Assembly: GCF_900102695.1 (NCBI RefSeq)
Contig: NZ_FMVW01000010.1
Span: 1 to 64,000 of the forward strand
Source of the DNA: Afifella marina DSM 2698
GTDB taxonomy: Bacteria; Pseudomonadota; Alphaproteobacteria; Rhizobiales; Afifellaceae
Direction of reading: 5' to 3'
DNA length: 64,000 bases
Below are positions 28,805 to 64,000 of this stretch, piece after piece. The first letter of the stretch is position 1. Each line of letters opens with the position of its first letter. The notes under the pieces are model-generated. The model was not told the origin of the DNA. It made no database searches and was given only the letters and a program-made list of their open reading frames with translations. Made by a program: the position numbers and the translations under genes.

Positions 28805-29089
28805 GCGAATCGGCCACTGGCCGTCATGACTTCCCGCGAACGCTTGCAGAAGCGTCCTGAAATGCGACAGCCAACGCCATCTTTGAGGCGTTCGTAACGC
28901 CCGGAACGTGACCCTGCTGCGAGCGGGGGAGAGGCTTAAGGTCTTGCTCCTCCTGCTTTGCGTCTCGCTTTCAGACTTGTCGAATGACTTCGAACGAGCT
29001 CCATGGCCAGCTCGATGCTGCATAGCCCGGAGGGAATGTGGCCGGTACCCGGCTTGACACCCCGATACCATCCGGCCTTTATCGCCATT

Positions 29090-29291
29090 GATGGTTCCCA
29101 GCGAAACGAAGACTTCGCTGGGTGAAAAGGGAATACGGTGCGGTGTAGCCAGTAGGCGCCAAATCCGTGACTGCCCCCGCAATTGTGAGCGGAGAGCGAC
29201 CCCGAACAATGCCACTGGGCGTGCGACGGACACCGTCTGACGCCTGGGAAGGCTCGGGGAAGCAGAGACCCGCAAGTCAAGAGACCTGCCA
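29090..29291 (+). ncRNA. Cobalamin riboswitch
   Basis: The conserved core is clear: GGGTGAAAAGGGAATACGGT (29120-29139), AATCCGTGACTGCCCCCGCA (29162-29181), GCCACTGGG (29211-29219), GCCTGGGAAGGC (29242-29253) and the B12 box AAGTCAAGAGACCTGCC (29274-29290). It should repress the downstream transporter when adenosylcobalamin binds. A 16-base perfect palindrome at 29347-29362 in the following stretch may be part of the expression platform. 28805-29089 holds no gene, only short hairpins such as 28887-28901. Confidence 0.93.
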
Positions 29292-29437
29292 TCATCATGC
29301 AACCAGACCCGGCGGGGATGTCGGGGGAAGGATCGAGATGACAACCTTGTCGTCGACGACAATGCGCGAGCTTCTTTTCGGGCAATCCATTCCGCCTGCC
29401 CCCGCGGTTCTCTCTCGGAACCAGGATAGCAGTCATA

Positions 29438-55507: not shown

Positions 55508-55924
55508 ATGGACATCAATCCTGACCGTCTGGGTAAGGTCGCGATCATTGCTGCGATCAGCTCGCGCGAGGAGGAAGAGGTCTTCAAGCAGTATATCGCT
55601 GCGAGTACGCGCTTGAAGCTCGGCATCACCTTTGTCAGCGGCATTCGCACGGATGTGACGAAGACATTCGTGAAGTCGCTCGTCGCCTGCGCGCTTCAAA
55701 GCCATATCATCCATCACCATCACAACGAGATCCACGCCGTGATCCATGCGGGCCTCGAATGCCTGAAGGGCGTCAGCTCGGACGTGGCGGCAGAATCGAG
55801 CCTGAAGCTCAAGGTGGCGATCGTTTCCGACGGACGGTGGCTCGCCATCGCTGCGCACGGCGAATCGGCTTTCCACCCCGAAACGAACCATGAGCGCATG
55901 GGCTTTGGGGTCATGCATCTCTAG
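55508..55924 (+). CDS. HutP-like RNA-binding antiterminator protein
   Basis: This 138-residue protein aligns over its whole length with Bacillus HutP, the histidine- and Mg-dependent antiterminator of the hut operon. EIHAVIHAGLECLKGV corresponds to ESHALYHATMEALHGV, DGRWLAIAAHG to GDWIAVSLYG, and NHERMGFGVMHL to EHETFGVGINHI. The three metal-binding His of HutP (73, 77, 138) are kept as His76, His80 and His128. No histidine-utilisation gene is nearby. The gene points toward the malonate decarboxylase operon, with a hairpin-rich stretch between. AAGGA precedes the ATG at 55508. The homology is judged from memory of HutP; the ligand and RNA target are unknown. Confidence 0.8.
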   Translation: MDINPDRLGKVAIIAAISSREEEEVFKQYIAASTRLKLGITFVSGIRTDVTKTFVKSLVACALQSHIIHHHHNEIHAVIHAGLECLKGVSSDVAAESSLKLKVAIVSDGRWLAIAAHGESAFHPETNHERMGFGVMHL

Positions 55925-56207
55925 GCGCCGAACCCGACGCCTCCCAGATCCGTGTGGCGCATGGGACAGGGCAGGCCAGACGCCCATTTCCCCAGTGACG
56001 GCCATGCTTTGGAACCTCCCTCCGCTTCAGCGGCCCCGTTTCGCTGAAGATCCCGCACCGAACGCGGTGAATGACCTGATCGCGGCTCGCGTTCGCCTCC
56101 GTCCGGCTTGAGGACGAGAGGCATTCTGTCAGCGCATTTTTCATGACCGGGAGGAGCGCTGTCTCGGATGCGGCCAGGATCAGGCGGCGGTTCGTCGCTT
56201 CGCCGCA

Positions 56208-56240
56208 TCGGCCGGTTGTGCTGTTCGGCCGGTCTTTTCT
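56208..56240 (+). terminator. Possible terminator after the HutP-like gene
   Basis: CGGCCG (56209-56214) and CGGCCG (56226-56231) can pair across an 11-base loop, followed by GTCTTTTCT. It would end transcription about 285 bases after the HutP-like gene, separating it from the malonate operon. Confidence 0.45.
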
Positions 56241-56279
56241 GCCGAAGAGCATCGCCCGTGTGCATGCGGGCGCGATTGA

Positions 56280-56581
56280 GCGCGGCGATATCTGATCACG
56301 TGATTGTACGTGCAAAATTAAAAACGACGATCTCAATCGTGTTCAATTTGCGGCCGACGAGCAGCGAAAACGTCGCGTTTTCAGATGTTTAGAATGCATT
56401 ATAGAAGTCGCATTTCAGCGCCTCTGCAACCCGTATGGGCGGCGGTAATTCCGCGGATGGCCTTCGCCGACATCATTCTAAGAGACTGAAAAACAACAAG
56501 AATATCTCCTTGTACGTCTGGCTTATAATGATGCCATTTTGCCGCAACCTTTGACCGGACAGAGGTCTGGACTCTTCGGCT
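56280..56581. promoter_or_regulatory. AT-rich control region before the hairpin cluster
   Basis: Composition falls sharply in A/T here compared with the flanks. It contains the palindrome ATCACGTGAT (56295-56304), the hairpin GAAAACG-TCG-CGTTTTC (56366-56382) and a perfect TATAAT (56524-56529) without a clear -35. No gene is seen. It is the probable promoter region of the malonate operon. Confidence 0.45.
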
Positions 56582-56860
56582 TCATAGTGAGATATACGAC
56601 TTAAGTCGGGGGTACCGATACGGGAACTCGACGGGCCCTCGGGCCATGTGATGCTCCGCCTGGCGGAGATGTACTGCTCTTTCGAGAGCTAGTGATACAG
56701 TGATCAGGGGTGACGCCGACCGCATTCGCGGAGGTGAGCACCTATCTTCAGAGCCCCTCTGGGGCGTGTGATCTCGTGACTGGAGCAGCTTGGGCGCCCC
56801 TTCGGGGAGTTCGTTCCATCCTTTGCTCAACCCCATTCCTCACCAGTGAATCAGTGTTCT
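56582..56860 (+). ncRNA. Hairpin-rich presumptive leader RNA of the malonate operon
   Basis: Six short GC hairpins occur within 175 bases: 56633-56645, 56654-56668 (CTCCGC/GCGGAG), 56676-56689 (GCTCT-TTCG-AGAGC), 56720-56731, 56753-56765 (GCCCC/GGGGC) and 56797-56807 (CCCC-TTC-GGGG). Between them are TAG-tgata-CAG-tgat-CAG (56690-56707) and CAG-tgaat-CAG (56844-56854). HutP is known to bind NAG triplets spaced by four bases, so this is a plausible target of the neighbouring HutP-like protein. No known riboswitch core is visible and no terminator with a T run was found. Confidence 0.5.
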
Positions 56861-57053
56861 CCGTGCCGGTGAACTCCTGAATCTCCTTGCGACTTTCGGC
56901 GCTTATCTGCGCTCGAGGTCAACGGGGAATTGCGCCCTCGCGCCGCCCGCTATGAGCGTCGTCCGGACGCGGCGAAATCGCCGATGCAGGCCTATGCGCA
57001 AGCGACGATTGTCATCGAAGCGCAGCCTGGGGAGGCGAAATGAGTACGAGATT

Positions 57054-58043
57054 ATGCAAGCCCCTCAGCAACTTACAGCGAACAATCCGGAGCAGACCCC
57101 CGCTTTCGAAGCCGGCGTAAGCGCCGTTGCCTGGCGCATCGGGTCGGCATTCCTCGCCGGCGCATTGCTCGAAGTCGCAACCCATCCGAAGCCTGGTCTC
57201 GTAACGGCCCGCTCCAACGGCGCACACCGCGACATGGACATCTCCACCTTCATGGTGTCCTCGGCCGCGATCGCTCCCTGCTTTTTTCAATGTGCTGATG
57301 CCGGCCAACGTCATGAAGGGCAGGTGGGCAGCCTTCTCCCGGTCGTGCGCGCCATTGGTTCCCATTATGAAGGCCTGCTTCTCGCCGCCACCGGCGGCGT
57401 CAACACACAACGCGGTTTTCTCTTCTCCGCCGGTATTTTGAGCGCTGCGGCTGGTCTGCTGGCGCGCGAACCGGCGGCCATGAGCGCCGATGCTCTCTTC
57501 GCGACTGCGGCCTTGATGGTCGACGGGCTTTGCGCCCGCGAGCTCTGCAGTCTTGCCGATCGCGAACCGGCGACTGCCGGCGAGTGGCTCTATCAACGCT
57601 ATGGTGTTCAGGGCATCCGCGGCGAAGTGGAGGCGGGTTTTCCCACCGTCGCCGAAGCGGGGCTCCCCGCTTTTCGGGCGGCCCGCGAAGCGGGAGCCTC
57701 TGTCCAGACGGCGCTCATTCACACCCTCATTTCCCTGATGGCTGTCGCCGAAGACACGACGCTTCTGTGGCGCGGCGGCTTTGCGGCGCTCGACTTCGTC
57801 CGTGCGGAAGCCCGCGAAGTGCTTCGTCTCGGCGGGGCGCTGAGCGAGGCCGGCATGGCCGCGATCCGCCGTCTCGATGCGGCATGCATCACCCGAAATA
57901 TCAGCCCCGGAGGCTCGGCCGATCTTCTGGCCATCACCTTCGGCGTCGATGCGCTCTTGAGCGGCCATCCCGCCCCCGGAGCCGCCTTCACCGACCGGCC
58001 CCGCACGGCGGGTCAGTCCCCCAACCCCCCGAGGATCTCATGA
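57054..58043 (+). CDS. mdcB: Triphosphoribosyl-dephospho-CoA synthase of malonate decarboxylase (MdcB/CitG family)
   Basis: This 329-residue enzyme condenses dephospho-CoA with ATP to form the precursor of the ACP prosthetic group. CitG-family motifs are LLEVATHPKPGLVTARSNGAHRDMD, GVNTQRGFLFSAGIL, ALIHTLISLMAVAEDTTLLWRGG and the ending NISPGGSADLLAITF. It precedes the pump and decarboxylase genes, as in mad/mdc clusters. The start is uncertain: the strong GGAGG (57031) best serves an ATG at 57040, which lies in another frame and stops after 26 codons. Its stop overlaps the next small gene (ATGA). Confidence 0.88.
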   Translation: MQAPQQLTANNPEQTPAFEAGVSAVAWRIGSAFLAGALLEVATHPKPGLVTARSNGAHRDMDISTFMVSSAAIAPCFFQCADAGQRHEGQVGSLLPVVRAIGSHYEGLLLAATGGVNTQRGFLFSAGILSAAAGLLAREPAAMSADALFATAALMVDGLCARELCSLADREPATAGEWLYQRYGVQGIRGEVEAGFPTVAEAGLPAFRAAREAGASVQTALIHTLISLMAVAEDTTLLWRGGFAALDFVRAEAREVLRLGGALSEAGMAAIRRLDAACITRNISPGGSADLLAITFGVDALLSGHPAPGAAFTDRPRTAGQSPNPPRIS

Positions 58044-58153
58044 ACATCATTGTCTATGCCGGGATGTCCTACCTCATCACCGCAATCATCGCTTTCGGCG
58101 TGATCGGCGTGATCGTCGGCATCTCCAAATTCCTCTCGCAGCCTTCCGAATAG
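58040..58153 (+). CDS. 37-residue single-helix membrane peptide before madB
   Basis: The peptide is mostly one hydrophobic helix (YLITAIIAFGVIGVIVGISK, residues 11-30) with a short polar tail, KFLSQPSE. The ATG overlaps the mdcB stop (ATGA), GAGG lies 6 bases upstream, and only 12 bases separate its stop from madB. Position and size recall the small anchor subunits (gamma/epsilon) of Na+-pumping decarboxylases such as OadG, but I see no sequence match and it lacks OadG's C-terminal His/Pro-rich part. A role in assembling or stabilising MadB is inferred. Confidence 0.7.
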   Translation: MNIIVYAGMSYLITAIIAFGVIGVIVGISKFLSQPSE

Positions 58154-58165
58154 ACCGGCGAAACC

Positions 58166-59374
58166 ATGTTACATCAACTCCTTAGCATCTTCCCGGGTAT
58201 CGGGACGCTCTTCGTTCAGGATCCGGTTATCGCGTTTTCGCGCATCGGCCTCATCATCCTCGGCTTCACGCTCGCCTATCTCGGCTTCAAGCGTACGCTC
58301 GAACCCTTGATCATGGTCCCGATGGGCCTCGGCATGATGGCGGTCAACGCCGGCGTCATGTTCCTGGAGGCCGGCAAGATCGGCACTCTCATCATCGCGC
58401 CGATGGTCTCCGAGACGGGCCCCTTGGTCGACATCATGCAGATCAACTTTCTGCAGCCGATCTACAACTTCACCTTCGTGAACTCGCTCGTTGCCTGCAT
58501 GCTCTTCATGGGCATCGGCACGATGGCCGACATCTCCTTCATTCTGGCGCGCCCTTGGGCTTCGATCACGGTTGCGGTCTGCGCCGAGCTCGGCACCTTC
58601 GTGACGCTGGTGATCGGCTACTACTTCGGCTTGACGCCGGGGCAGGCGGCTGCGGTCGGCACGATCGGCGGCGCGGACGGCCCGATGGTGTTGTTTGCCT
58701 CGCTGATCATGGCGAAGGACCTCTTCGTCCCGATCTCCATCATCGCCTATCTCTATCTGTCGCTGTGCTACGCTGGCTATCCGTACCTCGTGCGTTGGCT
58801 GGTGCCTGAGAAGTACCGTGGCATCGAGGTCGAGATCGACTTCCCTGATGTCTCCCCGCAAGCGAAGTTCATCTTCACCATCGTTGCTGCGGGACTCCTC
58901 TGCCTGCTGCTGCCGGTGGCATCTCCGTTGATCCTGTCCTTCTTCATGGGCGTTGCGATCAAGGAAGCAGAGATCGAGCCCTACCAGAAGCTCCTTGAGA
59001 ACACGATCACCTACGGGTCGACCCTTTTCCTCGGCCTTGTGCTCGGCGTGCTTTGTGAGGCTTCGACCCTGCTTGATCCGCGTGTGGCGATCCTGCTCGT
59101 CCTCGGCATCACGGCGCTCGCCGTCTCCGCTCTCGGCGGTATCGGTGGTGGCTGGCTGGTCTGGTTCCTGAGCAAGGGCAAGTACAACCCTGCCACGGGC
59201 ATCGCCGGTGTCTCCTGCATGCCGTCCACCGCCAAGATCGCCCAACGCTGCGCCTTCGAGGCGAGCCCCTACGCCATGATTATGCCTCTGGCCATGGGTG
59301 CCTCGATCTGCGGCGTCATCGTCTCCGCCATTGCCGTCGGCGTCTTCGCTTCGACGATCGGCCTGGTCGGATGA
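58166..59374 (+). CDS. madB: Na+-translocating malonate decarboxylase beta subunit (MadB/OadB/GcdB family)
   Basis: This 402-residue membrane protein has about nine to eleven helices and the conserved beta-subunit motifs. TIGGADGPMVLFASL (about residues 166-180) contains the Asp essential for Na+ transport in OadB. GVSCMPSTAKIAQR near residue 352 matches the conserved Na+-binding region VIII. It decarboxylates carboxybiotin and pumps Na+ outward. Its presence separates this cluster from the soluble biotin-free Mdc enzymes of aerobes. It overlaps the biotin-ligase gene by 4 bases. Confidence 0.92.
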   Translation: MLHQLLSIFPGIGTLFVQDPVIAFSRIGLIILGFTLAYLGFKRTLEPLIMVPMGLGMMAVNAGVMFLEAGKIGTLIIAPMVSETGPLVDIMQINFLQPIYNFTFVNSLVACMLFMGIGTMADISFILARPWASITVAVCAELGTFVTLVIGYYFGLTPGQAAAVGTIGGADGPMVLFASLIMAKDLFVPISIIAYLYLSLCYAGYPYLVRWLVPEKYRGIEVEIDFPDVSPQAKFIFTIVAAGLLCLLLPVASPLILSFFMGVAIKEAEIEPYQKLLENTITYGSTLFLGLVLGVLCEASTLLDPRVAILLVLGITALAVSALGGIGGGWLVWFLSKGKYNPATGIAGVSCMPSTAKIAQRCAFEASPYAMIMPLAMGASICGVIVSAIAVGVFASTIGLVG

Positions 59375-60303
59375 CGGAGCGTCCGGTGTCTGCGCGCCCC
59401 CCAACCCTGCAGACACCGGACGTCATCCTTCAACGTATCGAAACCCTTACTCCGGACGAAACCATGTCCACCTTCTTCGCCCTCGCTGCCACGCCCGCCG
59501 ACCTCGCAAGCCATTGCGGTGTCGAGCGCCGCAGCGGCGGGATCGACCCAGTCTATCGTATCTCGGCCGTCGATTCGACGAACCGGCTTATCCGGGATCT
59601 CGCTGGTGAAGGGGCAGGGCCGGGTCTCGCGGTGGTGGCCGATCATCAGACGGCCGGCCGCGGTAAGGGCAAGCGTTTCTGGTTTTCGGAGCCGGGCAAG
59701 GGCTTCGCTCTGTCGCTGCTGTTGCGGCCGGAGCGGCCGGTGGAAGAAGTCCCCCAGCTTACCCTCGTGCTGGGCGTGGCCGTCGCTGAGGCCATCGTGC
59801 AGGCAACCGGCGTCGCCGCCGAACTCAAATGGCCAAACGATATCCTCGTCGACGGTCGCAAGCTTTGCGGCATCCTGTGCGAGCTCGTCCTGACCCCGGA
59901 AGGGGACATGGCCCACGTGATCGCCGGTATCGGCCTCAACGTGAACGTCAAAGCGTCCGATTTTCCTCAAATCCTTGAGGGCATTGCCACATCTCTCGCG
60001 ATCGAAGCCGGTCGGACGATCGATTCCGAAGCGGTTCTGTCGGCGGTTTTCGACTCGGTCGAGCGGTGGATGAGGCGCTGGGAAGACGAAGGCTTCGACC
60101 CCATTCGCCAGGCCTGGATCGCACGCTCCTGCACAATTGGGCGGGAGATCTCCTTCGACGCAGGCGATGCGCGCTGCCGAGGCGTCGCAACCGACCTCGG
60201 CCCTGACGGCAGTTTAAGTATTCGAGACGGAGGCGGCGCTCTACACCGCTTCTACTACGGAGAAGCGTGTCATTCGCCCGCTATCGCGAGCGTTGCGCGC
60301 TAA
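59371..60303 (+). CDS. Biotin--protein ligase (BirA/BPL family) of the malonate operon
   Basis: This 310-residue protein has the ligase core VDSTNRLIRDLAGEG, ADHQTAGRGKGKRFWFSEPGKG with the biotinyl-AMP loop, and LKWPNDILVDGRKLCGILCE. The family C-terminal domain follows. It has no N-terminal HTH, so it is a ligase rather than the BirA repressor; the first 50 residues are extra. It would biotinylate the pump's carrier protein (MadF type), which should be encoded beyond the right edge. The ATG overlaps the madB stop; an internal ATG at 59464 is possible. Confidence 0.87.
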   Translation: MTERPVSARPPTLQTPDVILQRIETLTPDETMSTFFALAATPADLASHCGVERRSGGIDPVYRISAVDSTNRLIRDLAGEGAGPGLAVVADHQTAGRGKGKRFWFSEPGKGFALSLLLRPERPVEEVPQLTLVLGVAVAEAIVQATGVAAELKWPNDILVDGRKLCGILCELVLTPEGDMAHVIAGIGLNVNVKASDFPQILEGIATSLAIEAGRTIDSEAVLSAVFDSVERWMRRWEDEGFDPIRQAWIARSCTIGREISFDAGDARCRGVATDLGPDGSLSIRDGGGALHRFYYGEACHSPAIASVAR

Positions 60304-60326: not shown

Positions 60327-62000
60327 ATGTCCACTAACTCTACAGAAAAGAAGTGGGACCGCCGCTCTGCAGATACTGCGGAGAGGCTGGAGGCTGCCTC
60401 CCGGTACATTGGTCCGGGAAAGCAGTTCAAGCCGGAGGATACGGTCGCGCTGCTTGAAGCGGTGATCCGCGCCGGCGACCGGGTCAATATCGAAGGCAAC
60501 AATCAGAAGCAGGCCGATTTCCTCGCCGAATGCCTCAACAAGGTGGACAAGTCGAGGATCCACGATCTGCACATGGTGCAGTCGGCCGTGCCGCTGCCCG
60601 TCCATCTCGACCTGTTTGAGAACGGGATCGCCAAGAAGCTCGACTTCGCATTCGGCGGACCGCAGGCCGGCCGGGTCGCCAAGTTCATCAGCGAAGGCAA
60701 GCTCGAGCTTGGAGCCATCCATACCTATCTGGAGCTCTTTGGCCGCTACTTCCTCGACCTGACGCCGAAGGTGTCTCTCATCTGCGCCTACAAGGCGGAC
60801 CGGGAGGGCAACCTCTACACCGGCTTCAACACCGAAGACACGCCGACGATCGTCGAGGCCACGAAGTTCCGTCAGGGCATCGTGATTGCCCAGGTCAACG
60901 AGATCGTCGACAAGCTCCCGCGCGTCGACATTCCGGCCGACTGGATCGACGCCGTTGTGGAGTCGCCGAGGCCGTTCTTCATCGAGCCGTTGTTCACCCG
61001 TGACCCGGGGCTCGTCACGGAGAGCCAGATCCTCCTCGCGATGCTGTGCCTCAAAGGCATCTACGCCGAATACGAGGTCAAGCGGATCAACCATGGCATC
61101 GGCTTCCTGACGTCGGCCATCGAACTGCTTCTGCCGACCTACGGCGAAGAGCTGGGCCTCAAGGGCAAAGCCTGTACGCATATGATCCTCAACCCGCATC
61201 CGACGATGATCCCGGCGATCGAATCGGGCTGGGTCGATACGATCCACTGCTTCGGCGGCGAGCTCGGCATGGAGAAGTACGTTGCGGCGCGGCCGGACGT
61301 CTTCTTTACGGGCCCCGACGGCACGCTGCGCTCCAACCGCGCTTACGCCCAGACCGCCGGCCATTACGCCCTCGACATGTTCATCGGCGGCACGCTGCAG
61401 ATCGACAAATACGGCAATTCCTCCACGGCGACCGCGTCGCGCGTGGCTGGCTTCGGCGGCGCACCGAACATGGGTTGCGATGCCAAAGGCCGTCGTCATG
61501 TGACCGATAGCTGGCTGAAGTGCGGCAAGGAAATGCCGACGCTCGATCGTCAGATCGGCAACATGCCGCGCGGCAAGCGCCTTGTGGTGCAGGGTGTTGA
61601 AACGTTCGGCGAGGGCAGGGCGCCCGTTTTCGTGGAAGAGCTCGACGCCTGGAAGCTGGCCGAAAACGCCAATCTCGATCTGCCGCCGGTGATGATCTAC
61701 GGCGACGATCTCACCCACGTCGTGACCGAGGAAGGCATCGCCTACCTCAATCGCTGCGCGGACATCGATGCGCGCATGGCCGCCATTCGTGCGGTCGCCG
61801 GCTACACCGAGATCGGCATCAAGGCCAATCCGGACGAAACCCGGCAGCTGCGTGAAGCCGGCATCGTCAAGACGCCGGAAGACCTGGGCGTCGATCGCTC
61901 CCGTGCCAACCGCTCGCTGCTCGCAGCCCGCAACATCCGCGACCTCGTGAGCTGGTCGGGCGGCCTCTACAACCCGCCGGCCCGGTTCCGCAACTGGTGA
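60327..62000 (+). CDS. madA: Malonate decarboxylase alpha subunit (acetyl-ACP:malonate transferase)
   Basis: This 557-residue enzyme exchanges acetyl for malonyl on the ACP. The sequence is typical of MdcA/MadA throughout: IGPGKQFKPEDTVALLEAVI, VNIEGNNQKQADFLAE, DLHMVQSAVPLPVHLDLFE, LNPHPTMIPAIESGWVDTIHCFGGELG, YGNSSTATASRVAGFGGAPNMG and PPARFRNW at the end. Length is normal (about 550). AAGGAAACAGAGG lies upstream of the ATG at 60327. It is followed after 17 bases by the ACP gene. Confidence 0.95.
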   Translation: MSTNSTEKKWDRRSADTAERLEAASRYIGPGKQFKPEDTVALLEAVIRAGDRVNIEGNNQKQADFLAECLNKVDKSRIHDLHMVQSAVPLPVHLDLFENGIAKKLDFAFGGPQAGRVAKFISEGKLELGAIHTYLELFGRYFLDLTPKVSLICAYKADREGNLYTGFNTEDTPTIVEATKFRQGIVIAQVNEIVDKLPRVDIPADWIDAVVESPRPFFIEPLFTRDPGLVTESQILLAMLCLKGIYAEYEVKRINHGIGFLTSAIELLLPTYGEELGLKGKACTHMILNPHPTMIPAIESGWVDTIHCFGGELGMEKYVAARPDVFFTGPDGTLRSNRAYAQTAGHYALDMFIGGTLQIDKYGNSSTATASRVAGFGGAPNMGCDAKGRRHVTDSWLKCGKEMPTLDRQIGNMPRGKRLVVQGVETFGEGRAPVFVEELDAWKLAENANLDLPPVMIYGDDLTHVVTEEGIAYLNRCADIDARMAAIRAVAGYTEIGIKANPDETRQLREAGIVKTPEDLGVDRSRANRSLLAARNIRDLVSWSGGLYNPPARFRNW

Positions 62001-62017
62001 CGAAGGACATTTGAATC

Positions 62018-62335
62018 ATGGCTTTGAATACCTTGGAATTCGACCTCAAGCTCGATGAGGTGACGCATTCGATCGACACGCCGATCCATCTCGGCGTCGT
62101 CGGTTCGGGCGACATGGAAGTCCTGATGGAGCCCAAGGATCTGAAGGGCGCGGTCTCGGTCCGTATCGTTACCCCGGTCGCTGGCTTCGACGAACTGTGG
62201 AAGCGCGTGGTGGAGAAGTTCGTCTCCGAAACGCTCCTCGGCGATGTCCACCTCGAGATCAACGACAACAACGCCACGCCTGCCGTGGTCCTGCTGCGCC
62301 TGCGCCAGGGCTTTGCGGAAGCGACCGGCGAGTAA
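62018..62335 (+). CDS. mdcC: Malonate decarboxylase acyl carrier protein (delta subunit)
   Basis: The 105-residue ACP carries the 2'-(5''-triphosphoribosyl)-3'-dephospho-CoA group. The attachment Ser is in VVGSGDMEVLME (Ser29 or so), preceded by THSIDTPIHLG. NDNNATPAVVLLRLRQGFAEA closes the fold. Named MadE in Malonomonas. It lies between the alpha subunit and carboxyltransferase genes, as in all known clusters. Confidence 0.93.
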   Translation: MALNTLEFDLKLDEVTHSIDTPIHLGVVGSGDMEVLMEPKDLKGAVSVRIVTPVAGFDELWKRVVEKFVSETLLGDVHLEINDNNATPAVVLLRLRQGFAEATGE

Positions 62336-62346
62336 GGAGAGATCTG

Positions 62347-63303
62347 ATGCCGAAATGGAATGATCTTCAGGAGCAGAGCTTCCTGGAATCTGATGCGCGC
62401 GCCCGGGCCGTTGGCCTGGTCGACGAGGGCACCTACACAGAACTCGCGGGTCCGTTCGACAGGTTCTACAGCCCGCACCTGGAAGTCTTGGGCGAAGCCG
62501 TCGAATTCGACGATGGAATCGTCACCGCGGTTGGCAAGATCGGCAAAACCCCGGTTTTCGTCATCTCGCAGGAAGGCCGCTTCATTGGCGGTTCCGTCGG
62601 CGAGGTCGGTGGCGCGAAGATGGTCAACACGATCCGTCTCGCCATCGAGTTCCACGACAAGCTGGTGGCGGACTATCCGGACATCTCCGACGAGGAGAAG
62701 CCGGTCGTCGTCATCTCTTTCGAAACCGGCGGCGTGCGCCTGCATGAATCGAATGCAGGCCTTCTCGCCCATGCCGAGGTGATGGACCAGTTGCAGAAGG
62801 CACGCCACAAGGTGCCGGTCATCACGCTTATCGGCTCGAAGGTCGGCTGCTTCGGCGGCATGGGCTTTGTCGCGGCGGCAACGGACGCCATCGTGATGAG
62901 CGAGTTCGGACGTCTCGGCCTGACCGGCCCTGAAGTCATCGAACAGGAGATGGGCAAGGAAGAGTTCGATTCTTCCGATCGTGCGCTCGTCTTCCGCACC
63001 ACGGGCGGTCGGCACAAGTACATCATGGGCGATTGCAACGTCCTCGTGCACAACACGATCGGCGCCTTCCGTGAAGCCGTTGCCAAGCTCGCCGTTCTTC
63101 CGGTCTCCGAATTTGAGAAGATGCGCCGCATCGGCTCGCCCGAGGCCGTCGAACGCCAGCTGCGTGCAGTCGCGCTCGCTGCCGAGATGCAGCCGCAGGA
63201 TGCCCGTGACGTCTGGGTGAAAGCCGGCAATCCCGATCCCGTCGCTCTTACCGACATTCCGCTCGACGAGTTCCTCGCCGACGTGAAGCGGCTGTCGGTC
63301 TGA
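62347..63303 (+). CDS. mdcD: Malonate decarboxylase beta subunit / carboxyltransferase (MadC-MdcD type)
   Basis: This 318-residue crotonase-fold protein forms half of the malonyl-S-ACP decarboxylase or, in biotin systems, malonyl-S-ACP:biotin carboxyltransferase. Family motifs: SFLESDARARAVGLVDEGTY, GKTPVFVISQEGRFIGGSVGEVGGAKM, ETGGVRLHESNAGLLAHAEVM and SKVGCFGGMGFVAAATDAI. With the MadB pump and a biotin ligase in the same operon, the transferase role is the better guess. ATG at 62347 has GGAGAG upstream; the frame is open farther 5' but through the ACP gene. Confidence 0.93.
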   Translation: MPKWNDLQEQSFLESDARARAVGLVDEGTYTELAGPFDRFYSPHLEVLGEAVEFDDGIVTAVGKIGKTPVFVISQEGRFIGGSVGEVGGAKMVNTIRLAIEFHDKLVADYPDISDEEKPVVVISFETGGVRLHESNAGLLAHAEVMDQLQKARHKVPVITLIGSKVGCFGGMGFVAAATDAIVMSEFGRLGLTGPEVIEQEMGKEEFDSSDRALVFRTTGGRHKYIMGDCNVLVHNTIGAFREAVAKLAVLPVSEFEKMRRIGSPEAVERQLRAVALAAEMQPQDARDVWVKAGNPDPVALTDIPLDEFLADVKRLSV

Positions 63304-63337
63304 GCCCGGTCACAAATCCCTTAATCAGGAGACAATC

Positions 63338-64000
63338 ATGGAAGCCACTGAGACCATGATGGGAAGAGGTCGGGACGCGATCGACATGATCGTCGATGCC
63401 GACAGCTTCAACGAGGGCACCATCGGTGCCAAAACCTTCGACGATCCCGAATTCGGTCCGGGTGCGGTTGTCGGAACAGCAGCCCTCAATGGCGAGACGG
63501 TGACGATCATCGCCTCCGACGCCAACGCCTTCAACGAGAAGTTCCCCGTCGTCTATGCCGGCATCATCGGCATGGAGGAGGGCTACAAGATGGCGCAGGC
63601 CGTCTATGCCTCCCTCGAAGCCGATAAGGCCAAGCCGGTCGCCGAGAAGCGCCCGCTCGTCCTCATCGTTGACACCCCAGGAAACGGTCCGGGCAAGGTC
63701 GAAGAGATCTTCGGCATGAACAAGGCGACCGGCGCCTATCAGCTGGCGCTCGCTGAGGCTCGGCTTGCGGGTCATCCGATCGTTGCCATGGTCATCGGCC
63801 GGGCGATCTCGGGCGCCTTCCTGTGCCATGGGCTACAGGCGGACCACATCGTGTCGCTCGATGCCAACTTCGGCACGATGATCCACGTGATGCCGCTCAC
63901 CTCGGTGTCGCGCATCATCCGCAAGGATCTCGAGACGCTGCAGGAATTGTCGAAGGGCAATCCGGTCTTCGCCGCCGGCCCGCGCTTCTTTTACGCCCTC
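63338..64000 (+). CDS. mdcE: Malonate decarboxylase gamma subunit / carboxyltransferase (MadD-MdcE type), runs off window
   Basis: The first 221 codons are present and open to the edge. The frame starts MEATETMMGRGRDAIDMIVD and includes FGPGAVVGTAALNGETVTII, PLVLIVDTPGNGPGKVEEIFG, GHPIVAMVIGRAISGAFLCHG and NFGTMIHVMPLTSVSRI, all typical of MdcE/MadD. It pairs with the beta subunit encoded 34 bases upstream. AGGAGAC precedes the ATG at 63338. Confidence 0.93.
   Translation, partial: MEATETMMGRGRDAIDMIVDADSFNEGTIGAKTFDDPEFGPGAVVGTAALNGETVTIIASDANAFNEKFPVVYAGIIGMEEGYKMAQAVYASLEADKAKPVAEKRPLVLIVDTPGNGPGKVEEIFGMNKATGAYQLALAEARLAGHPIVAMVIGRAISGAFLCHGLQADHIVSLDANFGTMIHVMPLTSVSRIIRKDLETLQELSKGNPVFAAGPRFFYAL

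Follow-up and report, generated by a model that had tools for sequence, protein, structure and literature searches.

A HutP-family protein linked to malonate decarboxylase operons appears to act through an RNA hairpin in several alphaproteobacteria

HutP is known from Bacillus and related bacteria as an antiterminator that responds to histidine, and there the regulator gene lies ahead of the hut operon. It forms a hexamer with two RNA faces, and its binding of RNA depends on ligand and metal. Symmetric proteins that wrap spaced RNA triplets are known elsewhere, as with TRAP and others, whose fold and target are unrelated to those of HutP. The RNA target in the Bacillus hut leader consists of clusters of three spaced triplets, as set out in one account (PMC7430163). 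No link between HutP and malonate was found in the literature searched. Here we describe such a link in Afifella marina DSM 2698, starting from a window (the whole stretch of DNA analysed) of 64,000 nucleotides, in which the following features matter:

55508..55924, + strand: HutP-family protein, 138 aa, with the metal-site triad His76/His80/His128 (profile, fold, alignment)
56568..56596, + strand: possible promoter (TGGACT-N17-GATATA) where the conserved part of the leader begins (by eye)
56692..56712, + strand: GUG cluster 0, GTGATACAGTGATCAGGGGTG (motif reading)
56768..56778, + strand: GUG cluster I, GTGATCTCGTG (motif reading)
56841..56871, + strand: GUG hairpin (cluster II), stem CACC/GGTG, 23-nt loop GTG-N5-GTG-N6-GTG, the proposed HutP site
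57054..58043, + strand: mdcB, triphosphoribosyl-dephospho-CoA synthase, first gene past the leader (TIGR03132, 305.8 bits, cut-off 282.35)
58040..58153, + strand: hydrophobic microprotein (37 aa) encoded between mdcB and madB
58166..59374, + strand: madB, carboxybiotin decarboxylase subunit (TIGR03136, 783.7 bits, cut-off 596.9)
59371..60303, + strand: biotin-protein ligase, start codon uncertain (TIGR00121, 182.6 bits, cut-off 83.1)
60327..62000, + strand: mdcA/madA, malonate decarboxylase alpha (TIGR01110, 964.3 bits, cut-off 789.15)
62018..62335, + strand: mdcC/madE acyl carrier protein (TIGR03130, 118.6 bits, cut-off 84.1)
62347..64000, + strand: madC and the beginning of madD; the operon continues beyond the window to madM (tblastn of R. 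capsulatus proteins against locus L009)

The operon downstream of HutP is a Na+-dependent malonate decarboxylase (mad) operon, because the MadB and MdcA models (TIGR03136 and TIGR01110) are both matched above cut-off. A preliminary description of this DNA had the HutP gene pointing at a mad/mdc operon, and MdcB, MadB, the biotin ligase, MdcA and MdcC, all passing curated cut-offs, confirm that reading. It had also seen no hut gene nearby; in a search that covered hutH, the two hutH-like matches of the genome sit on contigs C10 and C13 and the window on contig C5.

The 138-aa protein matches the Pfam profile PF09021 (HutP) over all of its length (112.3 bits, E 2.4e-32, profile positions 1-128 of 128, cut-off 25); the profile is matched by all 17 aligned sequences. 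Compared as a single sequence by phmmer, it is weakly similar to Bacillus-type HutP (E 0.033-0.052), and a profile of the 17 sequences reaches three HutP sequences of the PDB over their full length (E 9e-10 to 2e-7). Its structure, predicted as a monomer with a pLDDT of 90, retrieves nine matches at E <= 0.001, all of them HutP, with TM scores of 0.66-0.80. Its histidines 76, 80 and 128 occupy the alignment positions of Bacillus His 73, 77 and 138, which we take to be metal ligands of Bacillus HutP, and the triad is retained in 15 of the 17 alignment rows, the window among them. Thus the end-to-end HutP match and the three metal-binding histidines (76, 80, 128) of the preliminary description are both borne out, the former by profile and fold and the latter by the Bacillus alignment, and the structural comparison with B. 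subtilis HutP that it proposed places the protein among HutP structures (TM up to 0.80), as the HMM comparison does. The protein is nevertheless not a hut-operon HutP by NCBI's curated model, since it scores 25 bits against the hut equivalog NF002838 of NCBIfam, whose cut-off is 155.

That score bears on whether we are looking at a conventional, histidine-sensing HutP that ties malonate use to histidine supply. The metal-site histidines and the presence of hutH in the genome would suit such a role, which we nevertheless find unlikely: hutH is above cut-off in only 7 of the 14 HutP-bearing genomes searched, a genus member that has no HutP also has hutH, the contig of the window carries none, and the equivalog score is not reached. 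Moreover, Arg88 and Glu90 of Bacillus HutP, presumably the contacts to the histidine side chain, fall on Ser91 and Val93 in the window protein, in a region where the alignment is gapped.

We find HutP closely linked to mad in the Proteobacteria in which it occurs. Within a sample of the class, one genome of 385, that of the window, has HutP above cut-off, and the same genome is the only one of the 385 with MadB above cut-off; sub-cut-off HutP matches in three further genomes (G097, G458, G632) were partial, lay in frames of 540-564 aa and were taken as chance. A pattern-based scan of the genomes of 84,980 species gave 17 confirmed HutP loci, 15 of which adjoin mad genes. Among alphaproteobacterial HutP genes, 17 of 18 adjoin mad, in four arrangements, the contig of the eighteenth being too short. 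Of the five genomes of the genus, four have HutP together with MadA and one has neither. MadB-like matches are found in 99 of 398 genomes of the phylum at E <= 0.001, the best besides the window's own being 57% identical, and no genuine mad operon that lacks HutP came to light; 15 of these loci, considered as HutP-less mad controls, were dropped for having neither mdcA nor mdcB in the stretch examined. The survey of HutP genes beside malonate genes suggested by the preliminary description therefore finds both the gene linkage and the leader RNA, described below, in other genomes. HutP could sit beside mad by chance, as a hitchhiker, since operons move as blocks and the HutP copy of R. capsulatus SB1003, RCAP_RS18130, is plasmid-borne. 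Against it stand the four arrangements and the RNA motif that accompanies them, one instance of which was found blind on a separate contig, and we give this idea hardly any credence.

From about 56568 onward, members of the genus share a conserved leader, and the 55925-56510 spacer is not conserved (both by eye). The possible promoter at the start of this block agrees with the consensus at 7 of 12 positions (count by eye). G001 and G003 retain it, and G004 reads AATATA there; the promoter scanner made no call. The preliminary description spoke of a hairpin-rich leader. The fold of the whole leader is not exceptional against shuffles (z -1.27); what stands out is a single small motif rather than the stability of the whole. 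Taken alone, neither the window hairpin (z -0.32) nor the cluster I region (z 0.76) folds better than shuffles.

The motif is a hairpin with a loop of 22-23 nt that reads GUG-N4/5-GUG-N5/6-GUG, and it is present in all 18 alphaproteobacterial mad leaders examined, about 130-290 nt ahead of the aligned mdcB start; shuffling yields it in 0-6% of shuffles per leader (17 leaders tested). The first GUG of the loop is preceded by A or C, the second by A or T and the third by C or G. In an alignment (A5) of ten sequences cut to equal flanks, which excludes five Afifella/Breoghania rows and a near-copy from R. capsulatus, the stem pairs covary, with 94% of cells paired, a value reached in 0 of 500 shuffles. 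An earlier count on a 16-row MAFFT alignment (A3) was set aside, giving 47.5% paired against 76.3% when slid by -1, because the Afifella and Breoghania rows stood one column off. In a tally of 17 distinct hairpins the constancy of stem pairs 1, 2 and 4 follows from the selection pattern, which was made from the same sequences and fixes stem bases and triplets while allowing loops of 18-24 nt. Upstream of the hairpin, 16 of the 18 leaders hold a further GUG pair, not always a triple (Azospirillum and a Phyllobacteriaceae MAG have none); the cluster I form GTGATC(T/C)(C/A)GTG recurs in 11 of 18, and the third GTG of cluster 0 is absent from G004.

A covariance model (R1) built without the clade of the window found, blind, a match of 38.2 bits (E 1.2e-7) in genome G802, where an mdcB match starts 164 nt downstream and HutP is located on another contig than this mad operon. 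Against the window hairpin R1 is weak (20.6 bits, E 0.048), this being the top match of the genome among 150 of 797 candidate places scored; the HutP-less relative G002 has a 22.1-bit match, elsewhere, that exceeds it, and the Breoghania hairpin is missed. None of the 4227 Rfam models matches the leader of the window or of seven other loci at gathering score, so that the three-GUG hairpin is an RNA element without an Rfam match; a lax threshold added two matches only, below gathering score and outside the motif, which were taken as chance.

Could the repeat instead be the DNA operator of a transcription factor, with HutP acting elsewhere? Any stem doubles as an inverted repeat in DNA, LysR or GntR regulators are frequent at mad and mdc operons, and a LysR gene adjoins the Klebsiella operon. 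We consider this very improbable, because the loop holds three direct GTG repeats on one strand, the hairpin lies downstream of promoter-like sites (by eye) and the hairpin and HutP go together in 18 of 18 alphaproteobacterial cases. An equally slim prospect is that the leader works as a riboswitch or attenuator in its own right, with HutP a mere passenger of the operon. Conservation of the leader within the genus would fit, but the HutP linkage survives rearrangements, the motif repeats triplets as the HutP target does, and the two enterobacterial leaders examined have no hairpin where their HutP has lost the histidines. The gene itself, which shows 48 synonymous and 6 non-synonymous codon differences from the G004 copy, is to judge by these changes under strong purifying selection.

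Thus, several alphaproteobacteria seem to have put a HutP relative in charge of malonate-use genes, by way of an RNA hairpin. We regard it as likely that this HutP-family protein is an RNA-binding protein whose dedicated role is to regulate the mad operon; it would bind the nascent leader RNA at the three-GUG loop and switch, presumably on, mdcB and the genes after it. Three GUGs spaced at about 8 nt would fit one three-fold RNA-binding face of a HutP hexamer, and clusters 0 and I may offer second sites. As for the ligand, we infer a replacement of L-histidine by some metal-chelating carboxylate, malonate being the simplest candidate.

The preliminary description had called the protein a HutP-like antiterminator. 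HutP family, mad link and leader motif hold, but antitermination of the Bacillus type is not borne out, as no convincing intrinsic terminator is found in the 18 alphaproteobacterial leaders: 13 have no terminator-like site and five have weak ones (-5.1 to -10.1 kcal/mol), one with a T run after the hairpin. The output may instead be that Rho-dependent termination is relieved, or a block on translation lifted. In Rhodobacter an arm of the hairpin can pair with sequence just ahead of the start codon, mostly through invariant pairs, which is only a hint of translational control. A leader peptide from GTG-NNN-NNN-TGA mini-ORFs was considered and dropped; such frames arise in several leaders because of the 8-nt period and are lost in the Phyllobacteriaceae and Rhodobium loops (by eye).

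On the proposed reading, this protein-RNA pair, with its change of specificity (in the triplet from NAG to GUG, in the ligand from histidine to something else), is open to direct test, could lead to the roles of other HutP-family proteins and would explain how Na+-pumping malonate operons are controlled in phototrophs such as Rhodobacter capsulatus. We also envision, as a possibility that falls a little short of an even chance, a protein-dependent RNA switch of a new class, in which malonate would complete the His3-metal centre of HutP, the three GUGs would be read in a fixed 23-nt loop, control of mad would need no intrinsic terminator and would run through Rho or translation, and a terminator-based form would precede another Na+-pump decarboxylase in a Firmicute.

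A candidate for that Firmicute form occurs in a Halothermothrix MAG with three HutP-family proteins, of which one carries a fusion to CBS-like domains and another is encoded ahead of a decarboxylase gene, so that the earlier statement that HutP control is known only for histidine use in Firmicutes was too narrow. The last of these (L033) resembles the window protein (41% identity, His triad, AGTGA repeats in the leader) and precedes the beta subunit of a Na+-pump decarboxylase, which passes TIGR01109 but fails the malonate-specific TIGR03136; unlike the mad leaders, its leader has a terminator-like hairpin and T run that overlap the second repeat pair (z -3.2). The HutP-family protein of Klebsiella and Phytobacter adjoins the same kind of operon, mad, but this enterobacterial type is 26-30% identical to that of the window and has lost all three histidines, and neither of the two leaders examined has the GUG hairpin, a LysR gene being adjacent in Klebsiella. 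With TRAP our system would share a symmetric protein that reads spaced triplets, and differ in fold and target. With Bacillus HutP the window protein shares the fold, the full-length profile match, the metal-site histidines and a gene placed ahead of the operon, and the alphaproteobacterial mad leaders, like the hut leader, hold clusters of three spaced triplets. Yet it stands beside malonate rather than histidine genes, and these leaders use GUG instead of NAG, with a period of about 8 and within a hairpin loop, and dispense with a convincing intrinsic terminator. Most likely, the HutP family here controls a pathway other than that of Bacillus, in another phylum, and does so with its own RNA triplet and with a hairpin that is compact.

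The product of the gene that precedes the malonate decarboxylase (mad) operon is a HutP-family protein, but not a hut-operon HutP equivalog, since it reaches 25 bits on the NCBI curated hut-operon HutP model, below the cut-off of 155. The features on which the argument rests are these:

55508-55924, forward strand: ORF of 138 aa, HutP-family protein
56841-56871, forward strand: GUG hairpin, leader core, CACC-A-GTG-AATCA-GTG-TTCTCC-GTG-CC-GGTG
54-74 nt upstream of the hairpin, in 11 of 18 leaders: second GUG cluster, GTGATC(T/C)(C/A)GTG
58040-58153, forward strand: hydrophobic microprotein of 37-40 aa, MNIIVYAGMSYLITAIIAFGVIGVIVGISKFLSQPSE, between mdcB and madB

In fact, the preliminary description had related the protein to HutP from end to end, and its match to Pfam HutP does extend along the entire profile (112.3 bits, E 2.4e-32, cut-off 25), single Bacillus-type HutP sequences being only weakly similar (phmmer E 0.033-0.052). 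A 17-sequence profile finds three PDB HutP sequences (E 9e-10 to 2e-7). With the 17-sequence alignment as input, AlphaFold2 returned a model (pLDDT 90.1, pTM 0.86) for which all nine Foldseek matches in the PDB at E <= 0.001 are HutP (TM 0.66-0.80), so the structural comparison agrees with the proposed family. The three metal-binding histidines claimed at 76, 80 and 128 are likewise kept: they align with Bacillus His73, His77 and His138, which we take to be the metal-site residues.

Downstream of this gene, MdcB, MadB, biotin-protein ligase, MdcA and MdcC each pass the NCBIfam cut-off and are followed by MadC and MadD, the remaining genes to MadM lying outside the window. The operon is that of a biotin- and Na+-dependent malonate decarboxylase. 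The MNIIVYAGMSYLITAIIAFGVIGVIVGISKFLSQPSE microprotein was found by tblastn in 20/20 mad loci examined, of alphaproteobacterial and enterobacterial type; the R. capsulatus and Klebsiella gene tables, which are incomplete, list no CDS at its position. Possibly this protein belongs to the Na+ pump as a small subunit.

HutP is rare in the samples searched: it passes the Pfam cut-off in 4/61 genomes searched as relatives (one of the four being the window's own), all within the genus, in 1/398 of the phylum sample and 1/385 of the class sample, each time the window's own, and in 1/248 of the Rhodobacter aestuarii family, the centre genome itself. In the class sample, MadB is above cut-off in the window's genome only (1/385), and among five genomes of the genus four have HutP and MadA together and the fifth has neither. 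A pattern-based scan of genome contigs from 84,980 species yielded 17 confirmed HutP loci, 15 of them adjoining mad genes; the other two are a 3.7-kb contig (L029) and a Halothermothrix MAG locus (L033), where HutP stands before a subunit of a different Na+-pump decarboxylase. With the window's genome, two relatives (G001, G003) and R. capsulatus SB1003 added, there are 18 alphaproteobacterial HutP cases, of which 17 are next to mad, in keeping with the earlier proposal that the protein is aimed at this operon. HutP lies upstream on the same strand in Afifella, Breoghania, Rhodobium and Rhodobacter, divergent in L031, downstream on the same strand in L030, L032, L034, L035 and Klebsiella, and downstream but convergent in L022. 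This linkage survives rearrangement and thus, on genome context, points to a functional link. Histidine use and HutP occurrence are not coupled, because hutH passes its cut-off in only half of the HutP-bearing genomes searched (7 of 14; one more has a match under the cut-off and six have none), yet is present in the HutP-less genus member.

Some loci deserve separate mention. The contig L035, filed under a MAG with the name Sporobacter termitidis, has a mad operon of enterobacterial type together with HutP and is probably misbinned. CP125156 (L017/L018) is labelled a plasmid, yet is evidently a chromosome, given its 5.37 Mb and its rpsO, pnp and deaD genes. In the Halothermothrix MAG, an ORF located after ispD/ispF-like genes (L041, 6426-7196) combines a HutP-family domain with domains that look CBS-like by eye, which would be another HutP-family role.

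By eye, the spacer at 55925-56510 has diverged within the genus, and strong conservation of the leader sets in at about 56568 and reaches as far as G004, a more distant relative. The leader RNA element suspected between HutP and mdcB proved to be a hairpin with three GUG triplets, found before mdcB in 18/18 alphaproteobacterial mad leaders examined (17 distinct sequences), also where the HutP gene is downstream or divergent. In 17 leaders the four core pairs enclose a loop of 23 nt; the remaining leader has 22 nt. Dinucleotide shuffles gave a GTG triple with a stem of at least 4 in 0-6% per leader (17 tested), and each of the 39 matches to a hairpin-derived pattern in the loci examined (1.37 Mb over both strands, loci overlapping) is a mad-leader copy. 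At stem pair 3, 13 of the 17 distinct hairpins have A-U and four have G-C, the latter seen in Rhodobacter as well as in Breoghania; pair 5 is formed in 13, as U-A, G-C, C-G or U-G. A ten-sequence alignment has 94% of stem cells paired, a count inflated by related rows; 0/500 shuffles were as high, slid registers gave at most 56%, and 47.5% of cells paired in an earlier alignment in which the Afifella rows were shifted by one column. The hairpin is missing from the Klebsiella and Phytobacter mad leaders, and none of the three metal-site histidines is left in the HutPs of these genera. The second GUG cluster is carried by four genus members, Breoghania, Rhodobium and 5/7 Rhodobacter. Any GTG pair within 200 nt upstream of the hairpin occurs in 16/18 leaders (absent in Azospirillum and a Phyllobacteriaceae MAG), which is weaker evidence than the hairpin, since loosely spaced GTG pairs are not rare.

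A covariance model (R1) was trained on ten hairpins, leaving out the Afifella-Breoghania group and G802, and searched against 24 whole genomes with 150 candidate places scored per genome. It gave one strong match (38-48 bits) in each of ten genomes, nine being sources of training sequences. The remaining genome, G802, has its R1 match (38.2 bits, E 1.2e-7) and its HutP gene on different contigs, and an mdcB match starts 164 nt downstream of this hairpin (59% over 96 aa, up to the contig end). In the four HutP-bearing genus genomes the mad leader is the top match, but at just 19.9-21.0 bits (E 0.034-0.084); these are not significant individually, as the HutP-less relative G002 has a 22.1-bit match elsewhere. 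R1 missed the Breoghania mad leader, and in none of the Halothermothrix, Phytobacter or Sporobacter-named genomes did it match a mad leader.

We envision that HutP, with metal at the three histidines and a chelating carboxylate, would grip the three GUG triplets round a three-fold axis. Malonate, a bidentate chelator, would for that reason be the simplest candidate ligand, a reading also tied to Ser91 and Val93, which align with Bacillus Arg88 and Glu90, presumably the readers of the histidine side chain. The leader matches no Rfam family. Among 5.39 million open papers, a set that lacks most subscription papers, HutP with malonate brought up two unrelated papers, and no paper names a HutP family, a HutP-like protein or a HutP homolog. 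On our reading, the probable HutP-type control here would act on a pathway and an RNA target that are both new for HutP. Elsewhere in the window, 29077-29307 (forward strand) is a cobalamin riboswitch (125 bits).

The protein had been described as an antiterminator, and here the earlier reading is weakened: classical antitermination is unlikely in alphaproteobacterial mad leaders because 13 of 18 scanned have no terminator-like site and five (Rhodobacter TJ_12, Azospirillum, L037, L038, L075) have weak ones, the T run following the hairpin only in Rhodobacter TJ_12. Rho-dependent or translational control would be the remaining outputs. In the Rhodobacter consensus fold the hairpin 5' arm pairs with the bases immediately before the start codon, an arrangement that would suit translational control, but the pairs involved hardly vary. 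Two other elements follow the HutP gene. The first (56210-56234, forward strand; 1.0 expected by shuffling), a hairpin that has a T run and resembles a terminator, is not kept in the genus relatives compared by eye. The near-palindrome TTGTACGTGCAA (56304-56315), kept in G001, with one change in G003 and its region missing from G004, is a possible operator of another regulator.

The Halothermothrix leader, between the HutP gene and the decarboxylase beta subunit (L033, 9402-9833), is built differently. Its AGTGA repeats run into and overlap a hairpin that has a T run and resembles a terminator (z -3.2); a simpler scanner that admits only loops of 3-8 missed it. This leader has the layout of classical antitermination, in contrast to the alphaproteobacterial leaders with their absent or weak terminator-like sites.
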